Assembly (NCBI GenBank): GCA_002343075.1
Contig: DDRH01000044.1
Coordinates: 99,566-163,565, forward strand
Direction: 5' to 3'
Source of the DNA: Phycisphaerales bacterium UBA2421
Lineage (GTDB): Bacteria > Planctomycetota > Phycisphaerae > Tepidisphaerales > Tepidisphaeraceae
Length of the DNA: 64,000 bases
Position 1 is the first letter of the stretch, and every line of letters begins with the position of its first letter. This document shows, in pieces, positions 1,623 through 40,506 of this stretch. The translations under genes were made by a program, and so were the position numbers. The notes beneath the pieces are model-generated. The model did not search any database and was not told the DNA's origin. It was given only the letters and a program-made list of their open reading frames with translations.

Positions 1623-1637
1623 TCGGCCATCATAACG

Positions 1638-4106: not shown

Positions 4107-4627
4107 AACAAGTGCTCCCAATCCCCGCGGCTCTCGCTTGCTCGCTCCAGTGACAACGTAGATGCGAGCGCGTCGGCGACAGCATACCGCAGTTATGTCT
4201 TTTTTTTAGAGGTTTTTTTCTGCTCACGCGCGCTGCGCGCCGAGCACTCCAACTGCGCAACAAGCGAAAAATCTCCGGAACACCGGAATTATCGGACGTA
4301 CATCGGTTGCTATCGATTGTGTCTCCTTTGCCGGATTTGCAGCCTGGTGCGTGTCGCCTTGATTGACCGTGCGAGGTACTTCCCGAGCGCAGCAACGCGC
4401 TTGGGGGCTGCGCACAAGACGGTCAAAACATGTTTCCAATGGCTCATTCCACCCTACCCCCCGCGCTGCGCCTGCGGCACGCGCAAAGCGCAGCGCTTGG
4501 TCAATATCTCGCAAGATAAGTCGCTGCGGCGCGGATGCCGTCGGGCCGAAGGAGTTTCAAGACCGACGAACTCCCCCGGCGAACGCAGCTGGGTCGCGAA
4601 ACGGATTCGCAAGGTGCAACCGTATCG
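4107..4627. other. Intergenic stretch without recognisable gene
   Basis: About 520 bases between two minus-strand LEPR genes. Translations of both strands give only low-complexity, Arg-rich frames that resemble nothing I know. Two T-rich runs lie at about 4198-4219, and a GC palindrome (GCGCGC-T-GCGCGC) sits at 4228-4240. The hairpin is not followed by T residues on the minus strand, so I do not call a terminator. The promoter of the downstream gene is probably here, but no clear boxes are visible. Confidence 0.5.
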
Positions 4628-8812: not shown

Positions 8813-9044
8813 TTTCTCTCCCAATGAACCAGCCACCGTCGGCTTCCAGCCCCGCGGTCAATTCCCGGGGGCAATGCCGCAGTTTGAAGTGAGGGAACTA
8901 TGCCACGAATCTTGCGGCACGGTGCCACGCCCGGGCAATGATAGTCCGATAACACACTATGTTCTGTCAATTGAGAAAAGCAAAATGTGTTGTACCAGCA
9001 GCAGAATGCCCGTTAACTGGGTAGTCAGGGAGGAACGTACAGAC

Positions 9045-9077
9045 AAAAAACGCCGGCATGGGGGTTCCATGCCGGCG
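9045..9077 (-). terminator. Rho-independent terminator of the 9106-10077 gene
   Basis: A perfect 11-base inverted repeat (CGCCGGCATGG at 9051-9061, CCATGCCGGCG at 9067-9077) with a five-base loop. Read on the minus strand it is followed by six T residues (9050 down to 9045). It lies 28 bases after the stop codon of the gene. Confidence 0.9.
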
Positions 9078-9105
9078 CGTCTTGCTGACTGATTCTCTGC
9101 TCTGC

Positions 9106-10077
9106 CTAGGTGAAACGGAGCTTGAGCGAGATGGTGCTGCTGGCGGTCCCATTCGCTCCAAGCCCGCTGAACGCGGTACCGGAGATGGAGTAGGTCTTTC
9201 CGGCCTGGGCGCGGAAGCCGTTGTAGTTGCCGTTGTTATCTCCAAGAAGCGCGAACGGCAGGATGCTTTCCACCTGCGTGCGGCCGTCGAATACAAACCG
9301 AACGCTCTTCACGCCCGTGTCCACATTGGCTCGAATCGAGATGTTGCGGGTCGGCAGCGTGCTCAGCTTGATCGTGCGATCCGACGTGAAATTGCTGTAA
9401 CCCGAGATCACCTGATTTGTATCAGCATTGATCAGGCTATAGCTGGTGATCTTCACGTTACTACCGCTCGGCGGCGGGGGGTTGGGGTTCGGGTTGGTCG
9501 TTCCCGAGGTCGGGCTTTGCGGCAACGCCGGGTTCTGGCCGTTGACGCCATCTTTGAAAAGCACCAACCGATCAATGACATACGCATTCGATCGCGCAGA
9601 GATTTCCACGCTGTGCTGTCCCTTGGACAGATTCACGCGATAATCTTCGAAGACATTGTGCCGAATCTCTTTGCGAGTGACATAAGTCCACTTCTTGTTT
9701 TCGTATGTGAACGCCTTGAACCACTGCCCGCCATCCACGCGGATGAAGACGTCGTTGAATTCCTTGTTGTCGCTGCTGGCGTTGTAGCTGCGCAGGTCGA
9801 GGTTGTAGGTACCGGCGTTGTTGATGTTGAAGTTGTACTTCAGGATGTTCCGGCCGGGGGTGCTGAAGTAGTTCGGGCCGTTCCACTTGTAAGCCGCCGA
9901 ACCGGTGTAACCGGCGGGGCTGGTCACGCGGGTCCAGCCGTTGGTCGGCTCGGATTCGATTTCAGCTACGGCCAGGCCGCCTGTTTCCTGAAAAACGCCG
10001 GCGAAAAGGGTGCGGCCCTCAAGCGGCTCCATGCCGCGCGACACCGGCTTGGACTTGGCAAGTCGAGACTTAAACAA
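9106..10077 (-). CDS. LEPR-tagged secreted protein with carbohydrate-binding-like domain and Pro-rich linker
   Basis: A 323-residue exported protein. The tag MEPLEGRTLFA lies at about residues 17-27. A domain resembling CBM6/CBM35 or malectin-type sugar-binding beta-sandwiches follows (about 30-165: AEIESEPTNGW, AGTYNLDLRSYN, GQHSVEISARS). A linker rich in Asn and Pro (NPNPNPPPPSG) joins it to a C-terminal beta-rich domain of about 115 residues that I do not recognise. No catalytic signature is visible, so binding of a surface or extracellular glycan is the likeliest role. The start is TTG, supported by GGAGG six bases upstream. A strong terminator follows, so this looks like a single-gene unit. 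Confidence 0.8.
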   Translation of the reverse strand: MFKSRLAKSKPVSRGMEPLEGRTLFAGVFQETGGLAVAEIESEPTNGWTRVTSPAGYTGSAAYKWNGPNYFSTPGRNILKYNFNINNAGTYNLDLRSYNASSDNKEFNDVFIRVDGGQWFKAFTYENKKWTYVTRKEIRHNVFEDYRVNLSKGQHSVEISARSNAYVIDRLVLFKDGVNGQNPALPQSPTSGTTNPNPNPPPPSGSNVKITSYSLINADTNQVISGYSNFTSDRTIKLSTLPTRNISIRANVDTGVKSVRFVFDGRTQVESILPFALLGDNNGNYNGFRAQAGKTYSISGTAFSGLGANGTASSTISLKLRFT

Positions 10078-10287
10078 ATGACACCTCCAGGTGCAAAAAA
10101 AGAAAAACAGGTTGACGGTTTACAGGCCCCCCAGGAACGCGATCGGGGAGGGTTTTCCTCGCCAGGTTCCCGAGTGGCAATGGGGCAAAATAGCGAACGC
10201 AGATTAGGACGCAACCCCAAAAGTCGTTGAAACAGATATTTTTTTTACCCACTTCCCCACTGAAAAGAGGCAGATTATGCGCCACGA

Positions 10288-11373
10288 TCAGAAAATTGTG
10301 TCCAGATTGACACTTCTAAACACCTCTGTCTGCGATACGCCCACGATACTCCCACCAGCCATGTAGATCCGATCGTTGACGATCCCGGCGAATCCCGCCC
10401 GACGCACCAGGGGCAGCGAGCTGAGTGACGACCACGAATTTGCGTATGGGTCAAATACCCGCACGGACTGCGATGCGACGTTGTGCGAGGTTTCCCCGCC
10501 GACGGTGATGATCTTCTTGTCAAACACAAGCGTGGACGACAGTTGATGGCTGATCGCCGCCGGCACATCGGGCGCCGCGAACCATCGGTTTCTGTTTGGA
10601 TTGTATCGGTGCACCAAGTCGAGGTTGACGGAGTTTGCCACCTCGCCCTTCTGGCCCCCGATGGCATAGATCTGACCATCGACCGCGGCGCCGGCGAGAT
10701 GATTGCGCGGGTCGGGCATTCGAGCGATCACCTTGTATTCATTCGTGTCGATGTTAAACGACCACGTCTCGGCGAACTCGGCAGTGCGCGGCTTGTTGCG
10801 TCCTCCGAACAGGTAGACCATGTTCCCCGAGAGCACCGCTGCGTGGGCGCCGCGGGGCGACGGCATGTCCGGGCCGCGGGTCCATTTGTTGGTCTTGAAA
10901 TTGTAAATCTGCACGGCGGCGGTGGCGGGACCGGGGTCGCGGCCGACGTACCCACCGAAGAAAAATGCGCGCGTCGCGGTGGTGATGATCGGGGTGTGTG
11001 TCGTATTGAACATCATGTCCGCGCCGCGCGACCATGTGTTTGTGGCCGGGTTGTAAATGTCCACGCGCGGGGTGGCTTCAAAACGCTGGTTGAAAAAGCC
11101 CCCGAACATGTAGAGCCTTGAACCGGACACCGCGCTGATGCCCTCCTCGCGCGCCTGCGGCGTATCGCCGACCTCGGTCCACTGCAGATTGGTCGAATTC
11201 GTTGTGGTCGCGTTAAACGCCTGGAACACCGCCGACTCGGCGACCGACGCGTCGCCACCAAGCGATTCAGCCGTGTGCTCGGTGCAGAAATGCCGCCGCG
11301 GTTCGAGACACTCCATGCCTTTGAATTTTTTGTGAGAATGACTGAGTGCGACCAACGACATTGCTCTCTGCAT
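10288..11373 (-). CDS. LEPR-tagged Kelch-repeat protein
   Basis: A 361-residue protein with the tag MECLEPRRHF near residue 20, the variant closest to the family name LEPR. It is followed by six Kelch blades, each marked by a di-glycine (MFGG, FFGG, LFGG, AIGG, TVGG, MAGG) and a downstream Y/W pair such as DIYNPATNTWSRG. This predicts a six-bladed beta-propeller outside the cytoplasm. Kelch propellers bind proteins or glycans or, in galactose oxidase, carry a copper site; no Tyr/Cys copper set can be assigned here, so function is open. It lies 77 bases downstream of the 912-residue LEPR gene on the same strand and may be co-transcribed with it. Confidence 0.85.
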   Translation of the reverse strand: MQRAMSLVALSHSHKKFKGMECLEPRRHFCTEHTAESLGGDASVAESAVFQAFNATTTNSTNLQWTEVGDTPQAREEGISAVSGSRLYMFGGFFNQRFEATPRVDIYNPATNTWSRGADMMFNTTHTPIITTATRAFFFGGYVGRDPGPATAAVQIYNFKTNKWTRGPDMPSPRGAHAAVLSGNMVYLFGGRNKPRTAEFAETWSFNIDTNEYKVIARMPDPRNHLAGAAVDGQIYAIGGQKGEVANSVNLDLVHRYNPNRNRWFAAPDVPAAISHQLSSTLVFDKKIITVGGETSHNVASQSVRVFDPYANSWSSLSSLPLVRRAGFAGIVNDRIYMAGGSIVGVSQTEVFRSVNLDTIF

Positions 11374-11450
11374 TCACCCGGCTCGCGGCAAAGCCCGGCA
11401 GGATAGCGGCATCCGTGCGGCTAAAAAAACTGTGGCCCGTCGCTCCGCGG

Positions 11451-14189
11451 TCAGACCAATTCGTCTAAATCGAGTCGCTCGGTGCTGAAGACCGGACCCG
11501 TCACCGGCGCGCGTGCGGCAAGCGATTGGGCCGATCGCTTCTCGACCACCTGCACGTTCCGAATCACCAGAACCACATCCTGATGATCCACCGGGGTCGA
11601 AATGGCTTCCGAGCCGAGGATAAACGCATTCGGCTCGACGGTTCCATCCGCCCGCCGATACGGATAAACGCGAATCTTCCGGCCGTTGGCACTGCTCGTG
11701 TCCCAAGTGTTTCGAGCGTCGTCCGAGTATGTCACGCGGTTGTTCCGCTGCGGCCAGACCGTGTAGATGCCGAATCGTGCGTTGCCGGGGTCAAGCTGAT
11801 TCCAGCCGGTGTATGAGACATTCACCGTCTGGCCGTTGCCGGAATTGGCGGTGAAGACCGAAGTCTGCGCGCCGGTGCCGGAGTCATACCAGCCCACATC
11901 CGTGACAAACGGGGAGGCGTTGGGGGCAAACACCGCCAGGGGTTCGATCGTCACCCAGCCCGGCCCGGCTTTCACAAACGCCTGTGCCTCGATTTCATCG
12001 TTTCCTGCCCTCGGCGGAAGCGGGATATTTGCTTCAGCAGAATCGTTGTCGCCCACATCAATGTCCAGGTTGTAGGCGCTCAAGATCCGCTGCAATGAGG
12101 GCTCATTGGCATCTTCGAGTCCCGGGGTGGCAATTCCGCGCAGCGGGATGTTAAAAGTCGCATCGCCGGCGGTGTCGTTGCTCACAATTCGCAGCGACGA
12201 AGTTTTGATGCCGTTGGTCGTGCCGGTTGGCGCGCTAAAGTTGACGCGCAGAGTTACGCGCTGACCCGGGCCGAGGTCAAACGGCTGCGTCGGCGCGTCG
12301 AGAACCTGAAACATCGACGCATTTCCGCCCGACGGGAGAATGGATGCGATGGTCAAACCGCGCATTCCACGGTTCCAGATGCTGATGCTGCGCGACTTGG
12401 ATGCTCCCCCGCCGCGCACGTCGTTGAACACAAGTTGCTCTTCAGTCGCGCGAACGCGGCGTCCTGAAAGCAGTCTTGCCTGGTCCGGGTGCAGGAGCGT
12501 GATGCTTGCCGCACCGTAGTCAGCTACATAGATATAACCCGTCCGCGGGTGCTGAATGATGTCGAGCGGGTCGACAAACTGCGTCAGACCCGTGAAGCCC
12601 GCTTCGCCCTTGGTGATGTTTCCCGCCGAGTCGCGTGTGAGCACGATAATGTTGTCGCCGGCGCTGTACTGTGCGACCATGATGGTGTTGTTCAGCCGCC
12701 GCCCAAACACGCTGCCCGAGAACTCGAAGATGCCGTTGGGCGAGATGTTGCGGCCAAACTCGTAAACAATGCCGCGATAGTTCGGATTCGGCTGCGTTCC
12801 CACCGGGTAGCTCAACACCTCGGCTTCATCCACGCCGGCAGTCGGATTTCCCCCGTTAAGGACGAACTCGCCGCGGGCGGGGTTGGGGTGACCGTAATAG
12901 CCGCCTTCTTCGATGAGATAAAGATAGTCGTTAACAGTCGGGATGGCGGTCAGTGCAGGCGCGCCTCCCCCGGCGGGGGAGTTGCCGCCGGTGGCGCTGC
13001 TGTTGGTGGGCGCGTAGAGTTTTCCATCGCGGGTCCAGAGCAGGTCATACGCATTCCTTACACCGGTGGCATACAGCCGCACGGGAGCACCGTTGGCGCG
13101 CGGGTTGTACGACCCACCCACATCGGTCGTGCGCACATTCAGGGGCGAGGTGATGGCGGCGGTGTTGATCTGCAGAATGGCAGCACTCAGCAGGGTTTCT
13201 TCCCGCAAGCCCCACTGCGCATCGGGCGCGCCCTGGGCCGATTGACTGCCGACCGACACATACATCAGCCCGTCCGGACCGAACTTGGGTTGATTCGTCA
13301 GGTGATCGCGTGCCGAGCGTGGCAAGTTGAAGATGACCTCTGTATAGGTCTCCAGATTGCGGCCCGTGAGTTTGCTTATCTTCCCGGAGAAGTTGGTCGC
13401 TCCCTCAAGAACATTCTCGCCATGGCTTACCCAGAGAATCGGGCGGGTCTTGGTGGACGCTGGATCGAACGCGATGCCCGTGATGAGCCTCTCGCGACCG
13501 CTATGGGCGGTGCGGACAGTCTGGATGGTCTTGCTGCTGCGGAAAGTACCGTCGGGGTTGAGGACATATCGTACGATCTGGCCGGTGCGGGTCGCCGCAT
13601 AGAGTCGGTCGTCCGGGCCAATCTCCATCGCTGTCCACTGATATCCGACCGATGACGGAAGCGCAATCTTATTGAAGCGGACTGTCGGATCGGCCGCAGC
13701 TTCGGTTGGGCCGGTGGTGAAAACGCTGGTGAATGGCGCGAATGACGCGCCGCTGGTGTCTTTTACGGCGCTGGTGACGTTGAATCGATACTGCGTGAGC
13801 GGGGCGAGCGGCGTGCGCGGGGTGAGGATGATGGCATCGCCCCCGCCGGTTGTGTTGACGTTGGCGGCGATGACGACACCGTCGCTGACGCGCGTGAGCG
13901 TGACGGCACCTGCAGTGCGCAATGAGGCATCGCTCACACCCGCGCCGACGTTGGGCAGCGACACATCGGCCTTCACCGCCGCCAGGGTGCTGGCACCCGT
14001 GCTGTTGGGCCGGGGTACAACCCCGCTGACGCTCGGCGTGCCGTTGGCGAAGATCACATTCACCCCGCTGGGGTCGATGCTGGGCACCGACGACGCGCCC
14101 GCGAGGAGTCGGCGGCCTTCTAGATGTTCGAACATGTGTGAAGTCATATCACTCGACCGCCGGCCAAACCGGCAGCGCATAAAAGCCAA
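11451..14189 (-). CDS. LEPR-tagged propeller protein with Big_5 and ASPM/SPD-2/Hydin-type domains
   Basis: 912 residues. The tag is FEHLEGRRLLA. Then come a Big_5-type Ig domain (about 40-150, ending FAPFTSVFTTG), a sugar-dehydrogenase-like propeller (about 165-590), an ASPM/SPD-2/Hydin-like beta-sandwich (about 600-700: RSISIWNRG, FDLGPGQRVTLRVNF) and a C-terminal region of about 200 residues without recognised family. The propeller is the full-length counterpart of the fragment at the left window edge. TTG at 14189 has GAGGGG five bases upstream; ATG codons at 14180 and 14147 are alternatives, and all keep the tag. Extracellular sugar oxidation or glycan interaction is inferred from the fold only. 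Confidence 0.83.
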   Translation of the reverse strand: MAFMRCRFGRRSSDMTSHMFEHLEGRRLLAGASSVPSIDPSGVNVIFANGTPSVSGVVPRPNSTGASTLAAVKADVSLPNVGAGVSDASLRTAGAVTLTRVSDGVVIAANVNTTGGGDAIILTPRTPLAPLTQYRFNVTSAVKDTSGASFAPFTSVFTTGPTEAAADPTVRFNKIALPSSVGYQWTAMEIGPDDRLYAATRTGQIVRYVLNPDGTFRSSKTIQTVRTAHSGRERLITGIAFDPASTKTRPILWVSHGENVLEGATNFSGKISKLTGRNLETYTEVIFNLPRSARDHLTNQPKFGPDGLMYVSVGSQSAQGAPDAQWGLREETLLSAAILQINTAAITSPLNVRTTDVGGSYNPRANGAPVRLYATGVRNAYDLLWTRDGKLYAPTNSSATGGNSPAGGGAPALTAIPTVNDYLYLIEEGGYYGHPNPARGEFVLNGGNPTAGVDEAEVLSYPVGTQPNPNYRGIVYEFGRNISPNGIFEFSGSVFGRRLNNTIMVAQYSAGDNIIVLTRDSAGNITKGEAGFTGLTQFVDPLDIIQHPRTGYIYVADYGAASITLLHPDQARLLSGRRVRATEEQLVFNDVRGGGASKSRSISIWNRGMRGLTIASILPSGGNASMFQVLDAPTQPFDLGPGQRVTLRVNFSAPTGTTNGIKTSSLRIVSNDTAGDATFNIPLRGIATPGLEDANEPSLQRILSAYNLDIDVGDNDSAEANIPLPPRAGNDEIEAQAFVKAGPGWVTIEPLAVFAPNASPFVTDVGWYDSGTGAQTSVFTANSGNGQTVNVSYTGWNQLDPGNARFGIYTVWPQRNNRVTYSDDARNTWDTSSANGRKIRVYPYRRADGTVEPNAFILGSEAISTPVDHQDVVLVIRNVQVVEKRSAQSLAARAPVTGPVFSTERLDLDELV

Positions 14190-31050: not shown

Positions 31051-31223
31051 CGCGTAAGTTGTGTGTCCTACTTCACTTGCAGGGGTTCCGAGGAAATTGA
31101 ATGAAATGCCGAGCGTTATGCCGACGTTCAATAATAGTCCTTTGAGAGCGGCAGACGCGCTGTCTGCGCATCGAAGGCAGATATGATGCGCGGGTCTGCC
31201 GCGTGCTTTTTGGAGTGTTACTT

Positions 31224-32672
31224 ATGTTTTCTCGATTGTTTACCCGGGGTTCACGCAACACCGCCGCCAATGTCTCTGGCAAATCCTGCTCGATCGAAAC
31301 GCTCGAACGACGCCAGCACCTCTCTACCTCGATCTTGGATAGCAAGATCAAAGTGGCAATGCTGACCGGTGATGACGGTACCGGCATCGCGTCATCGCGC
31401 GTCACTGTGCGCTTTGCCACCAACATTACGCTACTTGATCCGACCAAGTTCCGCATGTTTGGCTTCAAGACCGACACAACCAGCCCCAACCTGGCTCAGA
31501 AGAAGCAAACCATCAATATAACCAACGTCGATGTGGGTGCTGATGGCAATAAGCTTGTCTTCACCACTGACCGACGCGTTCGCAAGGGGGCTCAGCTCAT
31601 CGCGTATGCCGGAGCCATCGCCGACGGTGCCTCGGCACCGACCACGACCGATCTAATCGCCAAACTTCCAAAGGGACTCAACAAAGAGCGATTCACCCTC
31701 GCCAGCCGTTCCTTCGTGGCAACAAATCTCGCCTTTTTCAACAACAGCATCTTCAGCAGCGCGCCGGCCGTGACCGCCACGCCCACCTCGCCGTCCAGCG
31801 GCACCGTCACCACCAACCTCAACGCATATCTCGACGCCAAGGTGAATGCTGGAACCCTCACAACCGCCCAGCGTACGACGGCTTTGGCACGGTTCAACGA
31901 TGCCACGACAACATCAATCGTCCCGAACGCCAACCTGCGTGCCGCGATGGCTTCGCTCGTCGGCACTGTCGGCGAACCAGCCATTGAAGTGATGCTGACC
32001 AGCGCCAACCCGACCAACCAGCCCTTCACGGTCGTCGATTTCAGCTCCGAAGTGTCCGGCGGAGCGGTTGTGGCTGAAACCAAGGTCTCTGCAACCACCG
32101 GCCGCCTTCGCACACTCTTCAAGACTTCGCTTCAAGGCGAACCGTTCCAGGTGCTCGCGACATTCCTCGCGCACGAAGCGCTCCACACCGATAACCCCAA
32201 CAGCCAGAACGAAGAGATCTTCGCCAACTATGTCCAGACATCCGTATGGGCACAAAATGTGCTCGCCCAGCCGTCAATTGTTGGTGCCGGAACTCAGCTT
32301 GTTACTGAGAATAATCTGCTGCTGATGGCCGCGCTGAACTCCGGCGATGCGCTCTACCCCAGAACCGGCATCAATGACGCGCCGCTTATCGGCGGGCAGA
32401 ACGTTTTCCCCAACGCCAACGTTCCCTCGACCACGTACACCAGTTACCAGGATTACGTCCGCAAGATCTACCAGGCCCGCAACTTCGGCGGTGGCAACAC
32501 CAATGCCCCGCCGGTGGCGACGACCTACTCGAACCTGATCACCGGCCGAGCCGACACGGGAACATTCACGTTCTCTACAGCACGGTTTGACACGTTTGAC
32601 AACAGCCAGCAGATTCTCAGCGATCGCGCCTCAGTCCAACTTGCCGGCGCGCTTCGGCTGGCAACGAGGTAA
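31224..32672 (+). CDS. LEPR-tagged protein with HExxH metallopeptidase-like motif
   Basis: 482 residues. The tag IETLERRQHLSTS lies at about residues 24-36. A Big_5-like Ig domain follows (to about 150), then a linker rich in Thr/Ser/Ala. The C-terminal part contains LAHEALHTDNPNSQNEE at residues 315-331: His317, Glu318 and His321 form an HExxH zinc signature, and Glu330 or Glu331 could be the third ligand. I recognise no named peptidase family, so activity is an inference from the motif. ATG at 31224 has GGAG about nine bases upstream; a GTG at 31203 is an inferior alternative. A terminator follows. Confidence 0.75.
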   Translation: MFSRLFTRGSRNTAANVSGKSCSIETLERRQHLSTSILDSKIKVAMLTGDDGTGIASSRVTVRFATNITLLDPTKFRMFGFKTDTTSPNLAQKKQTINITNVDVGADGNKLVFTTDRRVRKGAQLIAYAGAIADGASAPTTTDLIAKLPKGLNKERFTLASRSFVATNLAFFNNSIFSSAPAVTATPTSPSSGTVTTNLNAYLDAKVNAGTLTTAQRTTALARFNDATTTSIVPNANLRAAMASLVGTVGEPAIEVMLTSANPTNQPFTVVDFSSEVSGGAVVAETKVSATTGRLRTLFKTSLQGEPFQVLATFLAHEALHTDNPNSQNEEIFANYVQTSVWAQNVLAQPSIVGAGTQLVTENNLLLMAALNSGDALYPRTGINDAPLIGGQNVFPNANVPSTTYTSYQDYVRKIYQARNFGGGNTNAPPVATTYSNLITGRADTGTFTFSTARFDTFDNSQQILSDRASVQLAGALRLATR

Positions 32673-32701
32673 ACCGCTCCGCTACAATCTTCAAACAAAT
32701 T

Positions 32702-32738
32702 GCCGCCGGCGACATTCACATGTCCCGGCGGCTTTCTT
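32702..32738 (+). terminator. Rho-independent terminator of the HExxH LEPR gene
   Basis: GCCGCCGG (32702-32709) pairs with CCGGCGGC (32725-32732), and an inner GAC/GTC pair extends the stem. The T-rich sequence TTTCTT follows on the plus strand. It lies 29 bases after the stop codon. Confidence 0.85.
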
Positions 32739-32786: not shown

Positions 32787-33809
32787 CTATCCCAGCGCTC
32801 CCGTACAGCTTGACCCCGCACCGGCGGTGCAGCCGAAGCAGTGGCTTGCCGTGCGGATGTCGCGATTGATCAGCTCCTCGGGCGTGAATTCCCACAGTTT
32901 TCTGCCTGCGGACTCGACAAAGTGCTCTTCCCCCGCCGGGCCGTCGAGCGGCATCTGCAGCATCTGGTTGAAGTCGCAGTCGTACACGCTTCCCTGCCAG
33001 CCGATGCTCACCAGGTCGCGGCACATGACATTCTCCACATTGTCCCTGCGGTGGGCCGAGGTGAGCTTGTCCATGTACATGTCAAACTTCTTATCGCGGC
33101 GCAGCGCATGCTCGAATCGCTTGATCGGCATGTTGGTGATCGACCAGAGCGTATGAAAGTGAATGTTGTATCGCGCTAGAAGTTCGCGCTTGTAATCGAT
33201 TTCCAACTGTTTCTGCGCTGGCGGAAGGCCGTAACCCACCGGGTTAAACACCAGGTCGAGCCGCAGCGGCGAGCCGGGCAAGCCATATCCGGCCGCGTTG
33301 AGTTTCTGCAACACGTCGATCGACTCGTGGTACACGCCCTGCCCTCGCTGCTTGTCGACGTTGTCTTCGAGGTAACAAGGAAGGCTCGCGACCAATTCAA
33401 CCTTGTGCTTCACAAAAAACGCGATCATCTCCTCGTAACCCGGCTCGAGCAGGATTGTGAGGTTGCAACGGTCAAGAATATGATAGCCGCGCGCGGTCAA
33501 CGCCTCGACGAATCGCTTGAAGTGAGGGTTCATCTCTGGCGCGCCCCCGGTGATATCGATTGTCGTGACGCCAGCCGCCTTCCCATGTTGATCGAGCCAT
33601 GTGACGATGTTTTCCATCGTCTCCCAGGTCATGATCTCCTTCCGCCTAGGCCCTGCTTCAACGTGGCAGTGATGACAAGCGAGATTGCACATTTTGCCGA
33701 CGTTGATCTGCAACGTCCCCAGCGCCCTGCGGCGGAGAAGTTGGTTGTCTGCGCGAAGCCGCTCGCCAAACAAGTCGTGTCTTTGATTGACTGGTAATGT
33801 GATGTTCAT
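32787..33809 (-). CDS. arsS: Arsenosugar biosynthesis radical SAM protein ArsS
   Basis: 340 residues. The radical SAM motif CNLACHHC (Cys41, Cys45, Cys48) is followed by DITGGAPEMNP and the family-specific C-terminal region (DCDFNQML, HCFGCTAGAGSSC). ArsS enzymes attach the 5'-deoxyadenosyl group to methylated arsenic, giving the precursor of arsenosugars. Some relatives are selenoproteins with a terminal Sec; this one ends CTGALG and TAG, with no in-frame UGA, so it is the standard form. It is the last gene of a minus-strand string: arsenosugar glycosyltransferase, pstS, pstCA, pstB, arsM, arsS, with 56 bases separating it from arsM. Confidence 0.92.
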   Translation of the reverse strand: MNITLPVNQRHDLFGERLRADNQLLRRRALGTLQINVGKMCNLACHHCHVEAGPRRKEIMTWETMENIVTWLDQHGKAAGVTTIDITGGAPEMNPHFKRFVEALTARGYHILDRCNLTILLEPGYEEMIAFFVKHKVELVASLPCYLEDNVDKQRGQGVYHESIDVLQKLNAAGYGLPGSPLRLDLVFNPVGYGLPPAQKQLEIDYKRELLARYNIHFHTLWSITNMPIKRFEHALRRDKKFDMYMDKLTSAHRRDNVENVMCRDLVSIGWQGSVYDCDFNQMLQMPLDGPAGEEHFVESAGRKLWEFTPEELINRDIRTASHCFGCTAGAGSSCTGALG

Positions 33810-33865
33810 GCTTATTCCATAGCTTTTTCAGAGGAGACGAAGGCGCAAAGCGGTCGGTTGCGCGC

Positions 33866-35059
33866 TCAGCAGCAGCCATCCGGCCCGCAGCAGTCGGCGC
33901 CGGCGCCAGTGGTGGCGCGATAATCCTGTCCTTTACTTTCCTTAGCGTGTCGGCGGGCTACACGCTTGCAGTCAAACAGCTCTGCGTCTGCTGATTTGAC
34001 TGCATTGAGCGGTTCCACACCGATGACCTGCCCGGCGTAGGGCCCGTTGGGGTCGGTCATCAGGTCAAACGTTTTCTTGCACACGGCCATCCGTTCCCCG
34101 CGGAAGAACATGTGGTTGTCATCATCCTTCACCTGTTTCCACGGCCCCTTGTATATCAGTGCCTGGTTGTGTTCGCGGCATTCTCCCTGCTTCCCCTTGT
34201 AGGCTCGGACAGTGAGCGAGCGAAACTCAACGCCGTCGATGGTTTGCCACGGCTCGAATTGTCGCACCAGCACCTCGATGCCGTAGAATCCGGCTTGCTC
34301 GAACATTTCAAGGAACTCCACCTCCCCGAACGCCCCGCTGATGCACCCGCTCCAAAGTTTTGGGTCATTAAGAATCGCGTCAGTCGGGGGTTCGTCCCAG
34401 ACGATGTCGCTAATCACGCACCGCCCGCCGCGCTTCAAGACACGGAACATTTCGCCGAAGAGTTTCTTCTTTTCACCAGGCTTGACCAGGTTCAGCACGC
34501 AATTGCTCACAATCACGTCGATGCTGTCGTCTGCAATCAGCGTTTCTTCCCGGCGCAGACGGTCGCACTCGGCCTCAAACTTCTGCACGTCATCGATCGA
34601 GCGAATGGGATTCTTATCGAGCCATGTTTGTGCCTTGTCGAGCGAGAGAGCGAGATCTTGAATCTTGCCCTTGCGAAAATCGGTATTTTTATAACCCACG
34701 GATTGGGCGATCTGATTCTGATACTTCCGCGCGAGTGACAGCATGGTGTCGTTCATGTCGACACCGATCACGGTTCCCGCCGACCCGACCTTTTGTGACA
34801 GGATGTAGCAAATCTTCCCTCCGCCGGAACCGAGATCGAGCACAGTCTCGCCGACCTCGACATGTTTGCTGGGATCGCCACAGCCGTAATCGCGCTCGAT
34901 GATCTCCCTTGGAATGATCTTGAGGAATTGCGGGTCGTAGTCCACGGGGCAACAGAGTGCGGCCTCCGCTGCCTGGGCCCCTGCGGCATAGCGCGACTTC
35001 ACTTCGCCTTCGATGTCGTAATCCACTTCCGCTTCACTTGATGAAAATTCTCCGGCCAT
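33866..35059 (-). CDS. arsM: Arsenite methyltransferase ArsM
   Basis: 397 residues. Class I SAM-dependent methyltransferase with motif VLDLGSGGGK (73-82) and VIGVDMN. The three cysteines expected for As(III) binding are visible: Cys60 (YGCGDP), Cys187 (SNCVLNL) and Cys239 (WSGCISGA). An extra Cys pair occurs at 36-37, and the end GADCCGPDGCC adds four more cysteines. It converts As(III) to methylated arsenicals, the substrates of ArsS. AGGAG lies four bases before the ATG. It sits 83 bases downstream of pstB and 56 bases upstream of arsS. Confidence 0.93.
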   Translation of the reverse strand: MAGEFSSSEAEVDYDIEGEVKSRYAAGAQAAEAALCCPVDYDPQFLKIIPREIIERDYGCGDPSKHVEVGETVLDLGSGGGKICYILSQKVGSAGTVIGVDMNDTMLSLARKYQNQIAQSVGYKNTDFRKGKIQDLALSLDKAQTWLDKNPIRSIDDVQKFEAECDRLRREETLIADDSIDVIVSNCVLNLVKPGEKKKLFGEMFRVLKRGGRCVISDIVWDEPPTDAILNDPKLWSGCISGAFGEVEFLEMFEQAGFYGIEVLVRQFEPWQTIDGVEFRSLTVRAYKGKQGECREHNQALIYKGPWKQVKDDDNHMFFRGERMAVCKKTFDLMTDPNGPYAGQVIGVEPLNAVKSADAELFDCKRVARRHAKESKGQDYRATTGAGADCCGPDGCC

Positions 35060-35142
35060 GGTCTCCTCTATTTCTTAATCCCTTACAGCGTTGCATGGAA
35101 CAGGATTGCCTCACCTGTGCTCGGCACAGACGTTTTACAGCT

Positions 35143-35952
35143 CTAGTTCCTTTTCAAGTAATCCACTACCGCCTGGCAGCAGGGGTTGTCGAGCATCTGG
35201 TCGCAGCAGGCAGTTTCGGCGACTTCGCCAACGCCATTGTTGACGCAGACACACGCCAGCCAGTCGCACACGCGACGCGCCTGCCCGATGTTATGTGTTA
35301 CCAGTACGATGGTATGTCGCTCTTTCAACCGCAGCATGAGTTGTTCGATCGCCTCGGTGCTGCGCGGGTCGAGCGCGCTGGTCGGCTCATCCATTAATAT
35401 GACTTCCGGCTGCATAGCTAGCGTCCGCGCAAGGCAAAGGCGTTGCTGTTGCCCGACGGAGAGCTTCAAGGCCGAGTCGGTCAGACGGTCCTTCACTTCC
35501 TCCCAGAGCGCCGCTTCGCGAAGCGCCGCTTCGGCCACATCGGGCAGCGCACGCCGCGACACCATGCGTAGCCGGCGCACGCCGAAGATCACATTCTGAT
35601 AAATGCTCTTCGGGAACACCACCGGTTGCTGAAAGAGCATGCCGATGCGGACGCGCAAGTCGTCCGGGTGGAGGGCGCCGCTCAATATAGACCCCTGATT
35701 GAAGGTAATGTCACCCGAAACAACCGCGCGCGGGGTCAGCTCGATGAGTCGATTGAAACATTTGATGAGCGTACTCTTGCCCGCACCGCTAGGCCCGATG
35801 ATGCCAAACACCTGCCGCGGTTGAATCGTGAGATTGACATCTTTGAGGATGGGCCGTCCAGCAATGGAAACTGACAGTCCGCGCGCTTCCAGCACCGCCG
35901 GAGAGACTGTTTCGGTGCTGCAACATGCGCTATCCTGAGCCAGCTTAAGCAC
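35143..35952 (-). CDS. pstB: Phosphate ABC transporter ATP-binding protein PstB
   Basis: 269 residues. ABC ATPase with Walker A GPSGAGKST, signature LSVGQQQRL, and Walker B VILMDEPTSALDP. It energises the Pst-type importer. The GTG start overlaps the end of the permease gene by eight bases, with AGGAGG six bases upstream, so translation is coupled. Unusually, it carries Cys pairs near both ends: DSACCSTE at residues 8-15 and ACCDQMLDNPCC close to the C-terminus. These are not part of the ATPase core. Vicinal thiols can bind As(III); a sensing role here is speculation. Neighbours make arsenate as well as phosphate a possible cargo. Confidence 0.92.
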   Translation of the reverse strand: MLKLAQDSACCSTETVSPAVLEARGLSVSIAGRPILKDVNLTIQPRQVFGIIGPSGAGKSTLIKCFNRLIELTPRAVVSGDITFNQGSILSGALHPDDLRVRIGMLFQQPVVFPKSIYQNVIFGVRRLRMVSRRALPDVAEAALREAALWEEVKDRLTDSALKLSVGQQQRLCLARTLAMQPEVILMDEPTSALDPRSTEAIEQLMLRLKERHTIVLVTHNIGQARRVCDWLACVCVNNGVGEVAETACCDQMLDNPCCQAVVDYLKRN

Positions 35953-37864
35953 TTACGGCCTCCTCGTGAATCCTGAGCCGCACCGGTAGTGCGATCAGGC
36001 TGAGCAGCATGACAATCATCAAAAGTGCCGCGGCGGTGCCCCATAGCTTTTCGCCGACACGTGGATCAAACGAATCTTGTGCGAGAATGAAAATGTGATA
36101 CGGCAGCGACAGCACCGGGCTTTCCACGATCCCGCGTGGGAACATCGCGCCGGCGAAGATCGTCGCGGTGAACATGATCGGTGCCGTTTCCCCCGCGGCA
36201 CGGGCTAGCCCCAGCAGCGAGCCTGTGACCAATCCTGCGCGCGATTGAGGGATGATGACTGACCAGACCGTCTGCGACTTGCTCAAGCCCAGCCCACGTG
36301 CGGCCTCGATGTATTTCTTGGGCAACGCTTTCATGCGCTCCACCAGCGCGACGGTGACGATGGGGATCATCATCAGCCCGAGAAGAATCCCGCCAGCAAG
36401 CCATGACTTGCCCCAGCCAAGGAACTTCACGAAGACGACCAGCCCGAACAGGCCAAAGAGTATCGAAGGCGTGCCGTTCAGAAGGTAAAGCACCATGCCC
36501 AGTCCGCGCGCCGCCCGTTCACGAAGATAGACCGACTGCATGAGTGCGACGGCCACTGCGATCGGTGTGCAGACGCACAGTGCTGTGGTGATAAGCAGGA
36601 GTGTTCCGATGATGTTAAAGAAGATTCCGCCGTCGGCGCCGACCAGTTTGATTTGTTCGGTGAAGAAGCGGAGGCTCAGTGCCGAGCTGCCGCGATAGAA
36701 GATTGCGAGGATCATCGCGAGCATGACGCCGGTTGCCAGAAGCGTGCAGGCTGCGAATGAGCCGATCGAGAATCGCTCAAGCCATTTGCGGCGCTTTGGC
36801 AGGCGCGTTACCGCTGGCTCTTGGGCAAGACGCGCGGTCAAAAGTGCGTCGGATGTGCCTTTTGTTGAATGCGTTTTGGTCGGTCTGGCGTGTTTGGGCG
36901 CATTTTCAACCGGCTGTGGGGGCGAAGCGGCAGACTTTGGGGACGTTAGCGCCGCCGCAAGCAGTGTTACCGTGCCAACCATGACGAGCAGCATCAGCCC
37001 CAATCCCACGACTGCGGCCCAGTGGAGCGGGTCGCCGTAGGCGATGTTGATTTCCGCCCCGCCGAGTTTGCTGGCGAGTGTTTGTCCCGATTCCAGAAGC
37101 GGGCGTAGGGTAAACGGCTGGGTGGGGAGGTTGTTATCCTGCCGGCCGACCACGAGAAACACCGCGATCGCTTCGCCCAAGGCCCGCCCCAGGGCCAGCA
37201 GGACCGCGGCAATCACGCCGATGCGAGCCTGCGGCAGTGCCACGTGCATCACCGCGGAAAGGCGTGAAAGCCCTAGCCCGCGCGCCGCCTGCCGCTGCAG
37301 CGCTGGAACGGCGCGGAGCGCGTCGTCACTGAGTGTCATGACCGTGGGGAGAATCATGACCGCCAACAGCAGCCCCGCGGTCAGAATTGTATCGCCGCTG
37401 TGCAGGTCAAAGCTTTCAAATGTGTCATAGACGAAAGTGCGGAGGTACAGGATGCCGACCAACCCGTAGACAACTGAAGGAATACCCGCAAGCAGTTCGA
37501 TCACAATTTTTACCATCAGGCGCGCGCGTCCCGGTAGAAACTCGCTTGTGATGATCGCAGCGCCAATACCCACCGGCGCAGCCACGCAAAGCGCCACCGC
37601 CGAGACCAGTAGTGTGCCAACGATCATGGACAGCGCGCCGAACATCTGCTGGCGATAATGCCAGTTGTTCGAGGTAACATAGCCAAGACCGGAATGGCTT
37701 AGAACGGGAAGTGTCTGCCAGGCGAACAGCGCGACCATCCCCACGACAAACCCCGCGGTGACCGCAGTGCCAATCACGCTGAACACGAGCGTATAGCTCC
37801 ACCGCCGCCGGTCAGGTGCGACGACGCTGTAGGTGTCCGTGATTGGCACTGCGGGCGAGTTCAT
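35945..37864 (-). CDS. pstCA: Fused PstC-PstA phosphate ABC transporter permease
   Basis: 639 residues from the ATG at 37864, one base after the pstS stop, indicating translational coupling. The N-terminal half is PstC-like (VGIGAAIITSEFL, AGIPSVVYGLVG, ALGRALGEAIAV). The C-terminal half is PstA-like (LNGTPSILFGLFGL, LARAAGETAPIMFTATIF). Both halves have about six hydrophobic segments and a permease EAA-type loop (AARGLGLS in each). They are joined by a hydrophilic Pro/Thr/Lys-rich linker (SPPQPVENAPKHARPTKTHS). PstC and PstA are usually separate polypeptides that form a heterodimer. The longer upstream frame to 37987 overlaps pstS and is not used. Confidence 0.9.
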   Translation of the reverse strand: MNSPAVPITDTYSVVAPDRRRWSYTLVFSVIGTAVTAGFVVGMVALFAWQTLPVLSHSGLGYVTSNNWHYRQQMFGALSMIVGTLLVSAVALCVAAPVGIGAAIITSEFLPGRARLMVKIVIELLAGIPSVVYGLVGILYLRTFVYDTFESFDLHSGDTILTAGLLLAVMILPTVMTLSDDALRAVPALQRQAARGLGLSRLSAVMHVALPQARIGVIAAVLLALGRALGEAIAVFLVVGRQDNNLPTQPFTLRPLLESGQTLASKLGGAEINIAYGDPLHWAAVVGLGLMLLVMVGTVTLLAAALTSPKSAASPPQPVENAPKHARPTKTHSTKGTSDALLTARLAQEPAVTRLPKRRKWLERFSIGSFAACTLLATGVMLAMILAIFYRGSSALSLRFFTEQIKLVGADGGIFFNIIGTLLLITTALCVCTPIAVAVALMQSVYLRERAARGLGMVLYLLNGTPSILFGLFGLVVFVKFLGWGKSWLAGGILLGLMMIPIVTVALVERMKALPKKYIEAARGLGLSKSQTVWSVIIPQSRAGLVTGSLLGLARAAGETAPIMFTATIFAGAMFPRGIVESPVLSLPYHIFILAQDSFDPRVGEKLWGTAAALLMIVMLLSLIALPVRLRIHEEAVSA

Positions 37865-37865
37865 G

Positions 37866-38714
37866 CTATTTGCCGTCGACCACCATTTGATCGAGCGACA
37901 GGTAGCCGTGTTTGCGCACGAGCTCCTGGCCGCGCGGGCTGAGCACGAAATCAATGAACACTTTGGCATCGCCGGAAGGGGCACCATTCGTGAGCAGGAA
38001 GAGTGGGCGGCTCATCGGATATTTCCGATTGGCGATGTTGGCGGCGAGTGGTGCGACTTCTTCGCCGGCGTCGTTCTTTATTGACAATGCGAAAACCTGC
38101 TTGCCGTCGGCCCAGTTGGAGGATAGCTGGCTTAACGCGCCGCGCGTGCCAGCAACCTTGTTGCGAGCCTCTTCATTCCCGCCGACCTCGGGAAAGCTGA
38201 CCGGAGGCGCCTTCCTGGCGTTGCCGTAAACGAAGTGGGCAAAGACCTCCCAAGTTCCCCGGCCCGGCTCTTTGTTGAAGAATGCGATGCGGCGGTCTGC
38301 CCCACCGACGTCCTTCCAGTTGGTAATCTTGCCTTCATAAATATCGGCCAGTTGCTCCCGCGTCAGCGACCGCACACCGGCCTCCCACACATCTTTGCTG
38401 ACGATCATCGCGACAGCGTCTTCACCGATGTGTGTCTCAACAAAATCAACCGACGGATACTTCAGTTTGTCTTGTTCGGTGATGTGCTTTGAGCTCATCC
38501 CGATCTGCACCTGCCCGTCACCGAGGGCACTGATGCCGCCGGCACTGCCGCCTTGGGTATCGATCTGGATTGTCATCGCCTTCTCGGCCCGTAAAATTTC
38601 CGCGGCCTCGGCGGTGGGGAGATTGACTGTGGTCGAGCCGTTGATTTTTAAGATGTCAGCCAGCACGGGGGCGGCGATCGCGAGAATCGCGCCAAAGGTC
38701 ATCCATGTTCGCAT
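37866..38714 (-). CDS. pstS: Phosphate-type ABC transporter substrate-binding protein PstS
   Basis: 282 residues from the ATG at 38714, which gives a good signal peptide (RTWMTFGAILAIAAPVLA); an in-frame GTG at 38759 would place 15 polar residues in front. It belongs to the PstS/SphX periplasmic binding family: INGSTTV near the start, TQGGSAGGISALGDG, and PGRGTWEVF correspond to the phosphate-binding loops. Whether it distinguishes phosphate from arsenate cannot be read from sequence. It follows the arsenosugar glycosyltransferase gene by 66 bases and precedes pstCA by one base. Confidence 0.9.
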   Translation of the reverse strand: MRTWMTFGAILAIAAPVLADILKINGSTTVNLPTAEAAEILRAEKAMTIQIDTQGGSAGGISALGDGQVQIGMSSKHITEQDKLKYPSVDFVETHIGEDAVAMIVSKDVWEAGVRSLTREQLADIYEGKITNWKDVGGADRRIAFFNKEPGRGTWEVFAHFVYGNARKAPPVSFPEVGGNEEARNKVAGTRGALSQLSSNWADGKQVFALSIKNDAGEEVAPLAANIANRKYPMSRPLFLLTNGAPSGDAKVFIDFVLSPRGQELVRKHGYLSLDQMVVDGK

Positions 38715-38780
38715 AAAGAGTATTGCCTTCTGGTTCGAGTTGCCGAACCGCAGTTTCACGGGTTGTGGAGAGAGAAATGA

Positions 38781-39464
38781 CTATGCTGCGGGCAACACAA
38801 CGGGTGGGGGAATCTGCACGAATCGCTGGATGAAGTGCAGTGCCCCATGTCGGGCGATATCGCGAGAATCGGGAATCGAGGGGAACAGCGGTGTTGGTAG
38901 AACGAACAGCCGCGCGAGGATGGTTAAGTCGCCCGTGTGGTCAAGATCGAGCTTCCGTTCGAGCAGTGCGACGGCGGCACTGTCAAATCGGGCGAGCAAT
39001 TCGTCGGCATCGGTATTCTGTTGCCAGCGAATGCGGTGCAGTCTCGCGCGGTCGGCGGTGTGCAGGCCGATCAGCCAGCACCCCCCGCGGTGGTCGGGGC
39101 CGATGACGAGTTGATTGGAGTCAAGGAGTTGAATCGCATTTGATACGTGGTCGCTCGTCAGTTGCGGGCAATCTCGACCGACGATGACAACCCGGTCATA
39201 CCCCTCGGCGGCTAGATCGTTGACGGCGTTCTCCAGCCGCTGCCCAAACGATCGCCCCCGTTGGCGATGCACCCGAACGTCGCGCTCTGCAATCTCCGAA
39301 GTGTTGTTGGAAAACCAATGAAGGTCGGCTCCCGCAGCGCTCAGGGCTGGCAATGACAGCAGCGGTGAGAAGCGCGACGAAAATCCCTTGCGGCGCAGAT
39401 CGCGCTGCCGATTTTCGGCGAAAATGAGAATCGCAACGCGGGGTTGCGCGGGGGGCATGTTCAT
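38781..39464 (-). CDS. TIGR04282-family arsenosugar biosynthesis glycosyltransferase
   Basis: 227 residues, cytoplasmic. The DUF2064/CofC-like nucleotidyltransferase-glycosyltransferase fold shows ILIFAENRQ at the start, RSFGQRLENAV, VVIVGRDCPQLTSDHV and GPDHRGGCWLIGL. Members of TIGR04282 co-occur with ArsS-type radical SAM enzymes (formerly rSAM/selenodomain-associated transferase 1) and are assigned to arsenosugar formation. It is the first gene of the string that continues with pstS, pstCA, pstB, arsM and arsS, so pathway and transporter appear co-expressed. Confidence 0.85.
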   Translation of the reverse strand: MNMPPAQPRVAILIFAENRQRDLRRKGFSSRFSPLLSLPALSAAGADLHWFSNNTSEIAERDVRVHRQRGRSFGQRLENAVNDLAAEGYDRVVIVGRDCPQLTSDHVSNAIQLLDSNQLVIGPDHRGGCWLIGLHTADRARLHRIRWQQNTDADELLARFDSAAVALLERKLDLDHTGDLTILARLFVLPTPLFPSIPDSRDIARHGALHFIQRFVQIPPPVVLPAA

Positions 39465-39621: not shown

Positions 39622-40506
39622 CTACCGACTATTCCCGCGACGTAGCGCCGCGGCGAGCTGTTCGTAGTTGTAGCGCATGATCCTGTCGTAGCTGTCTCGC
39701 CCCTGGGGTGAACTTGAACCCAGTGAATCAATCCGGGCGACCGGAATCGCAACGGTTTGCTCGAGCGCTGCAACGGCTGAAAGCGGAATGTCGGCCTCGA
39801 CTAGCATGATTCTACTCTGCTTCGCTTTAATCGTATCTGGAAGCGTGGCAATGGCTTGCGCATCGAAAGTTAGAAGTGACGCGCGCGAGAGCGGTTCGAT
39901 TACAAAGCTGTGCTGCTTGCCGAGGGCGGAATAGTCCTTTCCGATCGAGCCGACGCGCAAACTGTGCAGAGGGGTGAGCAGGTTCTTTCCATAGTCGCCG
40001 AGCGAATCAAGCTGCTTTACACACTCTGCCGCGCGCTGCCGGTATTCGTCGCCGTGCGCGGGGTCGACCGCGGCGAGGCGGTCGCCAAGCTCGCGCGCGG
40101 CTTGAGCGACGATGGCAGTGTTGAGCCAGAGTTGCGATTCTCCTGCACCCCACTCGGCGAACCGGTCGAGTCGAATCAGTCGGCGGTCGCCAAAGGCGTT
40201 GGCGAACTGGTCGGTGTAAGGTCCTTCCGCCACGCCGTTGGACAAGATCGCTACGGCCCGGCGCATCTGCTCAATCTGGGCCGGCGAGGGTTGGTAGCCG
40301 GCAAGCTCCTGCCCCGACTCGATCCACCAGGCCACCTCCACTCGTTCGCCGCCGATTTGCTGGGCAATGCTGGCCAGGGGGTAGACACTTGCTACGACCA
40401 GCAACTTTCGCCGAGGCGCTTGTGAAGCGGCGGTGTCGGCTGTGCGGTCACAACCGAGGCTGCCCAGAACGAGAAGACTGCAGAATAGGGTTGTGATCCA
40501 ACGCAT
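39622..40506 (-). CDS. ZnuA-like substrate-binding lipoprotein lacking the usual metal-binding histidines
   Basis: 294 residues with a lipobox (LGSLGC, Cys19), so membrane-anchored. The fold signature of Zn/Mn-binding proteins is clear (VVASVYPLASIAQQIGGERV, YQPSP, LWLN, MLVEADIPLS). The three histidines that bind metal in ZnuA/MntC families are not found at their places: the PHxYEP site reads LAGYQP (Ala69), the PHxWLDP site reads SQLWLN (Gln125), and FHDAFGY reads GKDYSAL. The ligand is therefore probably not classical Zn or Mn. No cognate permease or ATPase gene is adjacent. It lies 157 bases upstream of the arsenosugar-pst string on the same strand. Confidence 0.8.
   Translation of the reverse strand: MRWITTLFCSLLVLGSLGCDRTADTAASQAPRRKLLVVASVYPLASIAQQIGGERVEVAWWIESGQELAGYQPSPAQIEQMRRAVAILSNGVAEGPYTDQFANAFGDRRLIRLDRFAEWGAGESQLWLNTAIVAQAARELGDRLAAVDPAHGDEYRQRAAECVKQLDSLGDYGKNLLTPLHSLRVGSIGKDYSALGKQHSFVIEPLSRASLLTFDAQAIATLPDTIKAKQSRIMLVEADIPLSAVAALEQTVAIPVARIDSLGSSSPQGRDSYDRIMRYNYEQLAAALRRGNSR

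Follow-up and report, generated by a model that had tools for sequence, protein, structure and literature searches.

A Pst-type transporter cassette in one gene string with arsM and arsS in a planctomycete, and its possible part in arsenate import

Why should a phosphate-type importer stand in one gene string with two genes for arsenosugar synthesis? The question is raised by a locus of Phycisphaerales bacterium UBA2421 (Planctomycetota; assembly GCA_002343075.1, contig DDRH01000044.1, positions 99,566 to 163,565), within the stretch of 64,000 nucleotides that we analyzed and call the window. Six open reading frames (ORFs) on its minus strand (39464..32787) follow one another as a TIGR04282/DUF2064-like gene, pstS, a fused pstCA, pstB, arsM and arsS. 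The original prediction for this DNA had claimed six same-strand genes in this order with gaps of 66, 1, -8, 83 and 56 bases, and recomputing the ORFs and successive gaps, with pstS taken from the ATG at 38714, returned the identical arrangement.

Judged from sequence comparison, the operon is, on balance, probably a dedicated and possibly arsenic-gated arsenate importer that feeds ArsM and ArsS. In this model, PstS would capture arsenate by means of a binding loop, K-x-x-G-R-G-T, that may suit this anion, PstCA and PstB would bring it into the cell, and a thiol-dependent reductase encoded elsewhere would convert it to As(III). ArsM would then methylate As(III) and ArsS would attach a 5'-deoxyadenosyl group, resulting in an arsenosugar precursor, while a cysteine cluster in PstB could sense As(III) or the thiol state and throttle import. 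The substrate, the gating, the single transcription unit and the product are all matters that we infer. That the transporter is tied to organoarsenical synthesis at all appears probable because another, unrelated family of phosphate permeases recurs beside arsM and arsS, and because the PstS clade of the window recurs in Streptomyces arsenic islands.

The gene string and its proteins

The features of the locus are as follows.

38781..39464, minus strand: TIGR04282/DUF2064-like protein of 227 amino acids (aa), first gene of the string; its N-terminal part lies outside the family match
37866..38714, minus strand: pstS, phosphate-type periplasmic binding protein of the K-x-x-G-R-G-T clade; an alternative start is possible at 38759
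35945..37864, minus strand: pstCA, PstC-PstA permease fusion of 639 aa, over the cut-offs of TIGR02138 and TIGR00974
35143..35952, minus strand: pstB, ATPase of a Cys-rich subclass, with a GTG start and an 8-base overlap with pstCA
35060..35142, minus strand: pstB-arsM spacer of 83 bases; it holds CTGTGC-CGA-GCACAG, a perfect inverted repeat, and lacks a T run
33866..35059, minus strand: arsM, arsenite methyltransferase-like protein of 397 aa with a Cys-rich C terminus; best profile NF040538, below its cut-off
32787..33809, minus strand: arsS, radical S-adenosylmethionine (SAM) protein, Cys form, adenosyl-transferring, of arsenosugar biosynthesis; over the TIGR04167 cut-off
32701..32714, minus strand: terminator-like hairpin with a T-rich tail, 72 bases past the arsS stop; a consensus match only
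39622..40506, minus strand: ZnuA-like metal-binding lipoprotein, a candidate extra first gene 157 bases upstream of the string, unproven as a member of the operon

Families were assigned from NCBIfam profile scores read against the curated cut-offs, together with Pfam. ArsS scores 427.9 bits with TIGR04167 (cut-off 300), matches PF04055 and PF12345 (the DUF3641 C-terminal domain) and carries the radical SAM motif CX3CX2C as CNLACHHC. Both halves of the permease, run on a longer ORF of 680 aa, are over their cut-offs (TIGR02138, 332.4 against 196.45 bits; TIGR00974, 306.8 against 193.45), and fused homologues of the whole protein were found. The earlier pst and ars labels therefore hold for ArsS, PstC and PstA, whereas PstB (TIGR00972, 280.6 against 343.2 bits) and PstS (TIGR02136, 179.2 against 206.6) remain under their cut-offs. 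Two other labels need softening. The supposed TIGR04282 glycosyltransferase reaches 95.3 bits against 134 and matches only profile positions 62-189 of 189 (Pfam PF09837, 88.9 bits), and the protein taken for an arsenosugar ArsM scores 112.7 bits with the corresponding profile, NF038099, against a cut-off of 400. This ArsM is under every ArsM cut-off, with the arsinothricin ArsM profile NF040538 giving the best score (314.4 against 500) and PRK11873 a lower one (183.8 against 263); NF038099 is also not reached by three further planctomycete ArsM proteins linked to arsS (L046, L062 and L066). The neighboring position of arsM and arsS on the same strand, 56 bases apart, is the gene arrangement that marks arsenosugar clusters.

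PstS is, as modeled by AlphaFold (predicted local distance difference test, 90.5), a protein of the phosphate-binding-protein fold, its top PDB matches being phosphate-binding proteins with 4gd5 first (E 5.6e-25). Its subclass is well conserved, FFNKEPGRGTWEVF being nearly invariant in 121 rows among the matches listed. The distinguishing feature is a loop that reads K-x-x-G-R-G-T in the window clade and mostly R-x-x-G-S-G-T in canonical PstS; in E. coli PstS this loop contacts phosphate. Its Lys and Arg are present in 121/121 window-type rows (again among the matches listed), in 6/6 Streptomyces proteins and in G084, the distant genome that shares the gene order of the window, while the Arg occurs in 0/32 canonical PstS with a residue at that position. 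Of the 120 PstS homologues listed, 20 entered a tree, which joined the window type to the Streptomyces proteins at a support of 0.998, and these to G084 at 0.999. Among the listed homologues, P0001 (PstB) and P0241 (PstS) are the window's own cluster.

PstB carries five cysteines toward its C terminus (C234, C236, C249, C250 and C259), each of which is found in 115-120 of 120 homologues, and all five together in 114/120, among the matches listed. In 13 canonical PstB proteins, G303 has one of the five and the others none; some canonical controls came from a profile scan that, matching generic ABC motifs, brought up other PstB proteins and ABC ATPases. We hypothesize that the cysteines may have a gating role. 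The Cys-type PstB was detected in 4/397 genomes of the class at E<=1e-95, all from the window's family, with a variant in G035, and the plasmid collection held no match to the window PstB at E 1e-70. We rejected the idea that a Cys-type PstB is by itself arsenic-specific: the same Pst occurs in G396, G397 and G415, where no arsS is over the cut-off and the DNA fetched around Pst gave no match to ArsM or ArsS, so the cysteine tail alone is no mark of an arsenic operon. In G415 the Cys-type Pst operon is followed by two Porin_O_P genes (L299, 6717-13737).

The rest of the source genome, an assembly of 4.47 Mb in 67 contigs that is about 91% complete, includes a further Pst of the ordinary kind, encoded on a different contig; its PstB has a normal tail and 0/5 of the cysteines. 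The Pst of the window is thus an additional copy, and we propose that it is a specialized one. There is one arsS over the TIGR04167 cut-off and one PHO4 (Pit) gene, distant from arsS. Two genes of family PF01451 elsewhere in the assembly are possible thiol arsenate reductases; a scan of the assembly for Acr3 at E<=0.001 came up empty, and no search was made for other arsenate reductase families or for ArsB.

Permeases beside arsS in other genomes

A sample of 392 genomes of the phylum yielded arsS over the cut-off in 131; for the window's own family the figure was 5/26 genomes. We fetched 140 regions around arsS, none longer than 20 kb, of which 90 extend over at least 19 kb and 17 are under 10 kb. 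One of these, L061 with a partial arsS, did not anchor, and the other 139 together with the window make up the 140 arsS loci compared. The over-cut-off arsS genes at contig ends in G191, G176 and G074:C27 were left out; L184 (G018) is below the family cut-off. ArsM of the window type often accompanies arsS in Planctomycetota: 57/140 loci have, no farther than 3 kb from arsS, a protein scoring more than 180 bits to the ArsM of the window or of G084. Neighbors within 6 kb, each group named from one representative, include GT2/TIGR04282-like glycosyltransferases (41 loci), DUF547 proteins (36), flavin adenine dinucleotide (FAD) disulfide oxidoreductases (31), TIGR04169 peroxidase-like proteins (18) and purine nucleoside phosphorylases (9). 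The last of these lies downstream of arsS in L106 (7752-8573) and eight sister loci, and might strip the ArsS product of its adenine.

The gene-order comparison found pstS-C-A-B-arsM-arsS in the window and G084 only (2/140 loci), which leads us to reject a conserved planctomycete operon of this order and to withdraw the exact order as a feature of related genomes. Order and strand in G084 are those of the window, but pstC and pstA are separate there, pstC being recognized from a match to the window PstCA (39%, 101 bits) and an ORF. On the assumption that each genome has 5,000 genes and two pst operons, 0.03 adjacencies of pst and arsS would be expected in the 139 other loci, and one was seen, that of G084. 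In G352, which supplied the survey's closest ArsS (67%), arsM and pst are both absent from the neighborhood. In G303 (L052, 44-10690), arsS is followed on one strand by a Na/Pi cotransporter, a response regulator/kinase pair, pstS-C-A-B and a phoU-like gene; its PstS has the canonical loop, and we treat this string as possibly accidental. Several weak matches resembling PstB in the vicinity of arsS were left out of the Pst count; the representative that we checked (L085) is LolD/MacB-like.

The more frequent partner is a different permease. Genes of the Pit-type PHO4 family (PF01384), which is unrelated to Pst, lie near arsS in 17/140 loci, always on the arsS strand; 13 of the 17 have their centers no more than 1.75 kb from arsS, and the remaining four stand directly after arsM. 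The 17 genomes span 12 families, the window's own included, where G392 reads arsM-PHO4-arsS. This association of PHO4 and arsS is far beyond chance. Across 80 genomes, 41 PHO4 genes were counted, and 11 of them are no more than 6 kb away from arsS, where 0.11 would be expected, although the genomes are related and any formal P is optimistic. The background set comprised G018 and 79 of the 131 over-cut-off genomes (G000 and those with the lowest handle numbers, G176 and G191 not among them), and the 41 genes derive from 43 rows, two having been merged as fragments. Unrelated permease families thus occupy the same place by arsM and arsS, which looks like functional replacement. In family f50 (L132, 372-4533; also L127 and L124), a redoxin-like gene lies between PHO4 and arsS, with arsM downstream.

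The linked PHO4 proteins have cysteines of their own. A CxC pair and a third Cys stand in the central loop of 16/16 linked planctomycete proteins that include the region, compared with a total of two cysteines and no CxC in E. coli PitA; the comparison covers the linked proteins and E. coli PitA. Where the ends are present the proteins carry NGAND and NDxPK signatures, typically as NGANDNFKG and NDTPK, a reading in which they differ from E. coli PitA.

Similar sets occur on plasmids. There were 52 arsS-bearing plasmids, of which four were read (H1, H2, H6, and H26 via its PHO4), the unannotated H2 from its sequence. An Acinetobacter portensis plasmid combines arsS, a TVP38/FAD oxidoreductase, DUF547, TIGR04283, TIGR04282, a methyltransferase and PHO4, and a Cupriavidus KK10 plasmid has PHO4, an arsM (47-50% identical to the query ArsM proteins), a gap of 0.5 kb, arsS and an FAD oxidoreductase. 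The Acinetobacter PHO4 shows CxC and a third Cys, the Cupriavidus protein a CC variant and further cysteines. Relatives of the Acinetobacter PHO4 at a coverage of at least 80% were found on two records of the plasmid collection, itself included, both in arsenosugar-type clusters, and no phage record matched linked PHO4. The Acinetobacter cluster, near-complete for arsenosugars (L317, pJNE5-X3_NDM-1, 1184-11704), is followed by an IS3 transposase and by tniQ/tniB/tnsA-type genes.

The PstS clade itself reappears in Streptomyces. A search of plasmids with the window PstS at E 1e-40 gave one match, 51% identical, on a plasmid of Streptomyces NBC_01708, where the genes run arsC-trxB-trxA-arsR-pstS-pstCA-pstB; ACR3 and ArsO flank them on one side, and gpmI-aroA follows about 2.5 kb off on the other. 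Relatives of this PstS are present in 9/101 Streptomyces genomes at E<=1e-50, and we read five of the loci. An ArsR with CVCDL or CVCDM, the former being the As(III)-site motif of ArsR, adjoins Pst in 4/5 genome loci, or in 5/6 members with the plasmid; in the Streptomyces locus L326 no ArsR-type gene was seen in 3.9 kb. In G1137, Pst stands between aroA and gpmI (74% and 67% identical) and, on its other side, trxB-arsC-arsR. The two loci with wider context both place arsC, trxB and the bsnMN-like pair aroA-gpmI near Pst, and from family and pairing this pair may well be bsnMN, where bsnM encodes a homologue of 5-enolpyruvylshikimate-3-phosphate synthase and bsnN a phosphoglycerate mutase, BsnM being proposed to act on As(V) (PMC12159101). 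PstCA is also fused in Streptomyces (41% identical), and PstB there is without the cysteine tail.

What the transporter may carry

Comparison with known systems helps to place the string. With the ArsM-ArsS arsenosugar pathway of Synechocystis (cited in PMC8552651; a study of the ArsS mechanism is cited in PMC12159101) it shares an ArsS over the TIGR04167 cut-off beside an ArsM-type methyltransferase; it differs in the importer cassette added to the string and in an ArsM under the NF038099 cut-off. The arsinothricin cluster of Burkholderia gladioli, described in PMC8552651, has arsQML, with arsR, pitA and aioAB on the opposite strand. It resembles the window in placing organoarsenical genes near a phosphate/arsenate permease, and the window ArsM matches the arsinothricin profile best, below its cut-off; its pitA, by contrast, is divergent and of another transporter family, and it has ArsL rather than ArsS. 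For the bsn (bisenarsan) clusters of Streptomyces, PMC12159101 proposes a pathway from As(V) by BsnM and BsnN, with a C-As bond made without SAM enzymes. The likeness here lies in the two loci with bsnMN-like genes near window-clade PstS and fused PstCA, and the unlikeness in their adjacent ArsR and ArsC and in a PstB devoid of the C-terminal cysteine cluster. Compared with ordinary PstSCAB, the window shares fold, subunits and operon layout, with PstC and PstA over their cut-offs, and departs from it in the loop of PstS, the Cys-rich PstB, the fusion of PstCA, the lack of phoU in the string and the scores of PstB and PstS. Cyanobacterial ars operons also associate a phosphate-binding protein gene with arsenic genes, although PstS stands there with arsB(ACR3), arsC, gap3, a major facilitator superfamily gene and a glyoxalase, in a resistance context in which the passages of PMC4284471 name neither arsM nor arsS.

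Several observations count against dedicated arsenate import. In the DNA fetched, 120/140 arsS loci carry none of the three permease types; no such permease was seen in six arsS loci of proteobacteria-named records (flanks of at most 1.5 kb) nor, by annotation, in the plasmid arsS loci of B. glumae and Thiodictyon. The Cys-type Pst exists in G396, G397 and G415, all without arsS over the cut-off, and the DNA fetched around these Pst genes (20 kb for G396 and G415) had no match to the window ArsM or ArsS, other arsenic families not having been searched for in every neighbor. In G415 the neighbors include the two Porin_O_P genes, and in G035 arsS and the Cys-type Pst are on separate contigs. Within the string, 83 bases separate pstB from arsM. 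At its pocket positions outside the loop, PstS has residues that canonical PstS commonly shows too, and the placement of G084 in the tree may be an artefact because its branch is long (1.6).

Some of these points lend themselves to other explanations. An unlikely one, in our view, is that this Pst imports phosphate selectively and, expressed together with a pair of arsenic detoxification genes, secures a protective phosphate supply under arsenate. The fold of PstS and most of its checked pocket residues are phosphate-like, the Porin_O_P genes adjoin homologous Pst in G415, and the phosphate systems that reject arsenate better are generally those of high affinity (PMC4010505; also PMC4284471). 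A purely protective supply is argued against by the Pit-type replacements, if these pass arsenate as does PitA, a low-affinity phosphate/arsenate transporter (PMC8552651), since such a recurrent partner would then worsen arsenate stress; same-clade PstS proteins in Streptomyces, moreover, lie near genes of a pathway with a proposed As(V) substrate. The original prediction had left the choice between arsenate import and phosphate supply open, and of these the repeated presence of Pit-type partners agrees better with arsenate import than with phosphate supply. Its notion of a dedicated import route likewise gains comparative support from the wider pattern of PHO4 and the PstS clade, but not from the exact order, which is rare. 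That rarity (2/140 loci), together with the 83-base spacer and its small hairpin and the Cys-type Pst of genomes without arsS, would suit an accidental adjacency of two functionally unlinked operons. We regard this as quite improbable given the rough expectation of 0.03 for an independent second case and the like association of PHO4 and of the PstS clade in other phyla. Slighter still is the chance that the permeases carry an organoarsenical, such as dimethylarsinate, an arsenosugar or its phosphate, instead of inorganic arsenate. The replacement of Ser by Arg in the PstS loop and the NGANDNFKG and NDTPK signatures of linked PHO4 would be in keeping with such a substrate, whereas the PstS model best matches phosphate binders, and the loci that combine this PstS clade with bsn-like genes contain ArsC and ArsR and are proposed to begin from As(V).

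Returning to dedicated arsenate import, a broader and more tentative extension, which we rate as possible rather than likely, is that certain importers have evolved for arsenate: the K-x-x-G-R-G-T PstS clade, in Planctomycetota and Streptomyces and coupled to ArsM/ArsS and bsnMN, two unrelated pathways to C-As compounds, and separately a PHO4 subfamily. Pst and PHO4 might then have gained As(III)-gating cysteine clusters independently, and arsenic would be scavenged as a building block and not merely met as an accidental poison. If this is true, a transporter clade tied by its genes to arsenic-compound synthesis in two phyla, with a defined loop change and cysteine clusters, would provide a sequence handle on deliberate arsenate uptake, to our knowledge the first. 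Explanations of microbial arsenosugar production would become testable, and producers of organoarsenic compounds more readily predicted from genomes. Arsenate is usually described as a phosphate mimic that enters through phosphate transporters (PMC4284471 and PMC4010505), and our literature search found no description of pst or PHO4 together with arsM/arsS.

Signals and surroundings of the string

The inverted repeat in the pstB-arsM spacer may be an attenuator, an operator or a product of chance; the consensus scan reported no terminator-like site in the spacer and no promoter-like site on the minus strand of the region. Terminator-like sites number five in the region against 8.4 expected by shuffling, and neither promoter nor terminator kinds are clearly above the shuffled expectation. 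The window has no Rfam match and no tRNA. A mobile arsenic island was considered and rejected, the flanks resembling dnaN, asnB, rpoN and gatB on a reading of the sequence made with no family search. Upstream, the ZnuA/MntC-like gene (39622-40506, minus strand) is an orphan with no permease or ATPase partner beside it, and its product scores 107.5 bits with PF01297, under all NCBIfam cut-offs. Beside arsS, on the plus strand (31203-32672), is an ORF of 489 aa for which neither NCBIfam nor Pfam gave a match at E 0.001. Further afield, 249 genomes sampled around an Undibacterium genome contained arsS in 103 at E<=1e-60, and arsenosugar-type chemistry may be widespread.

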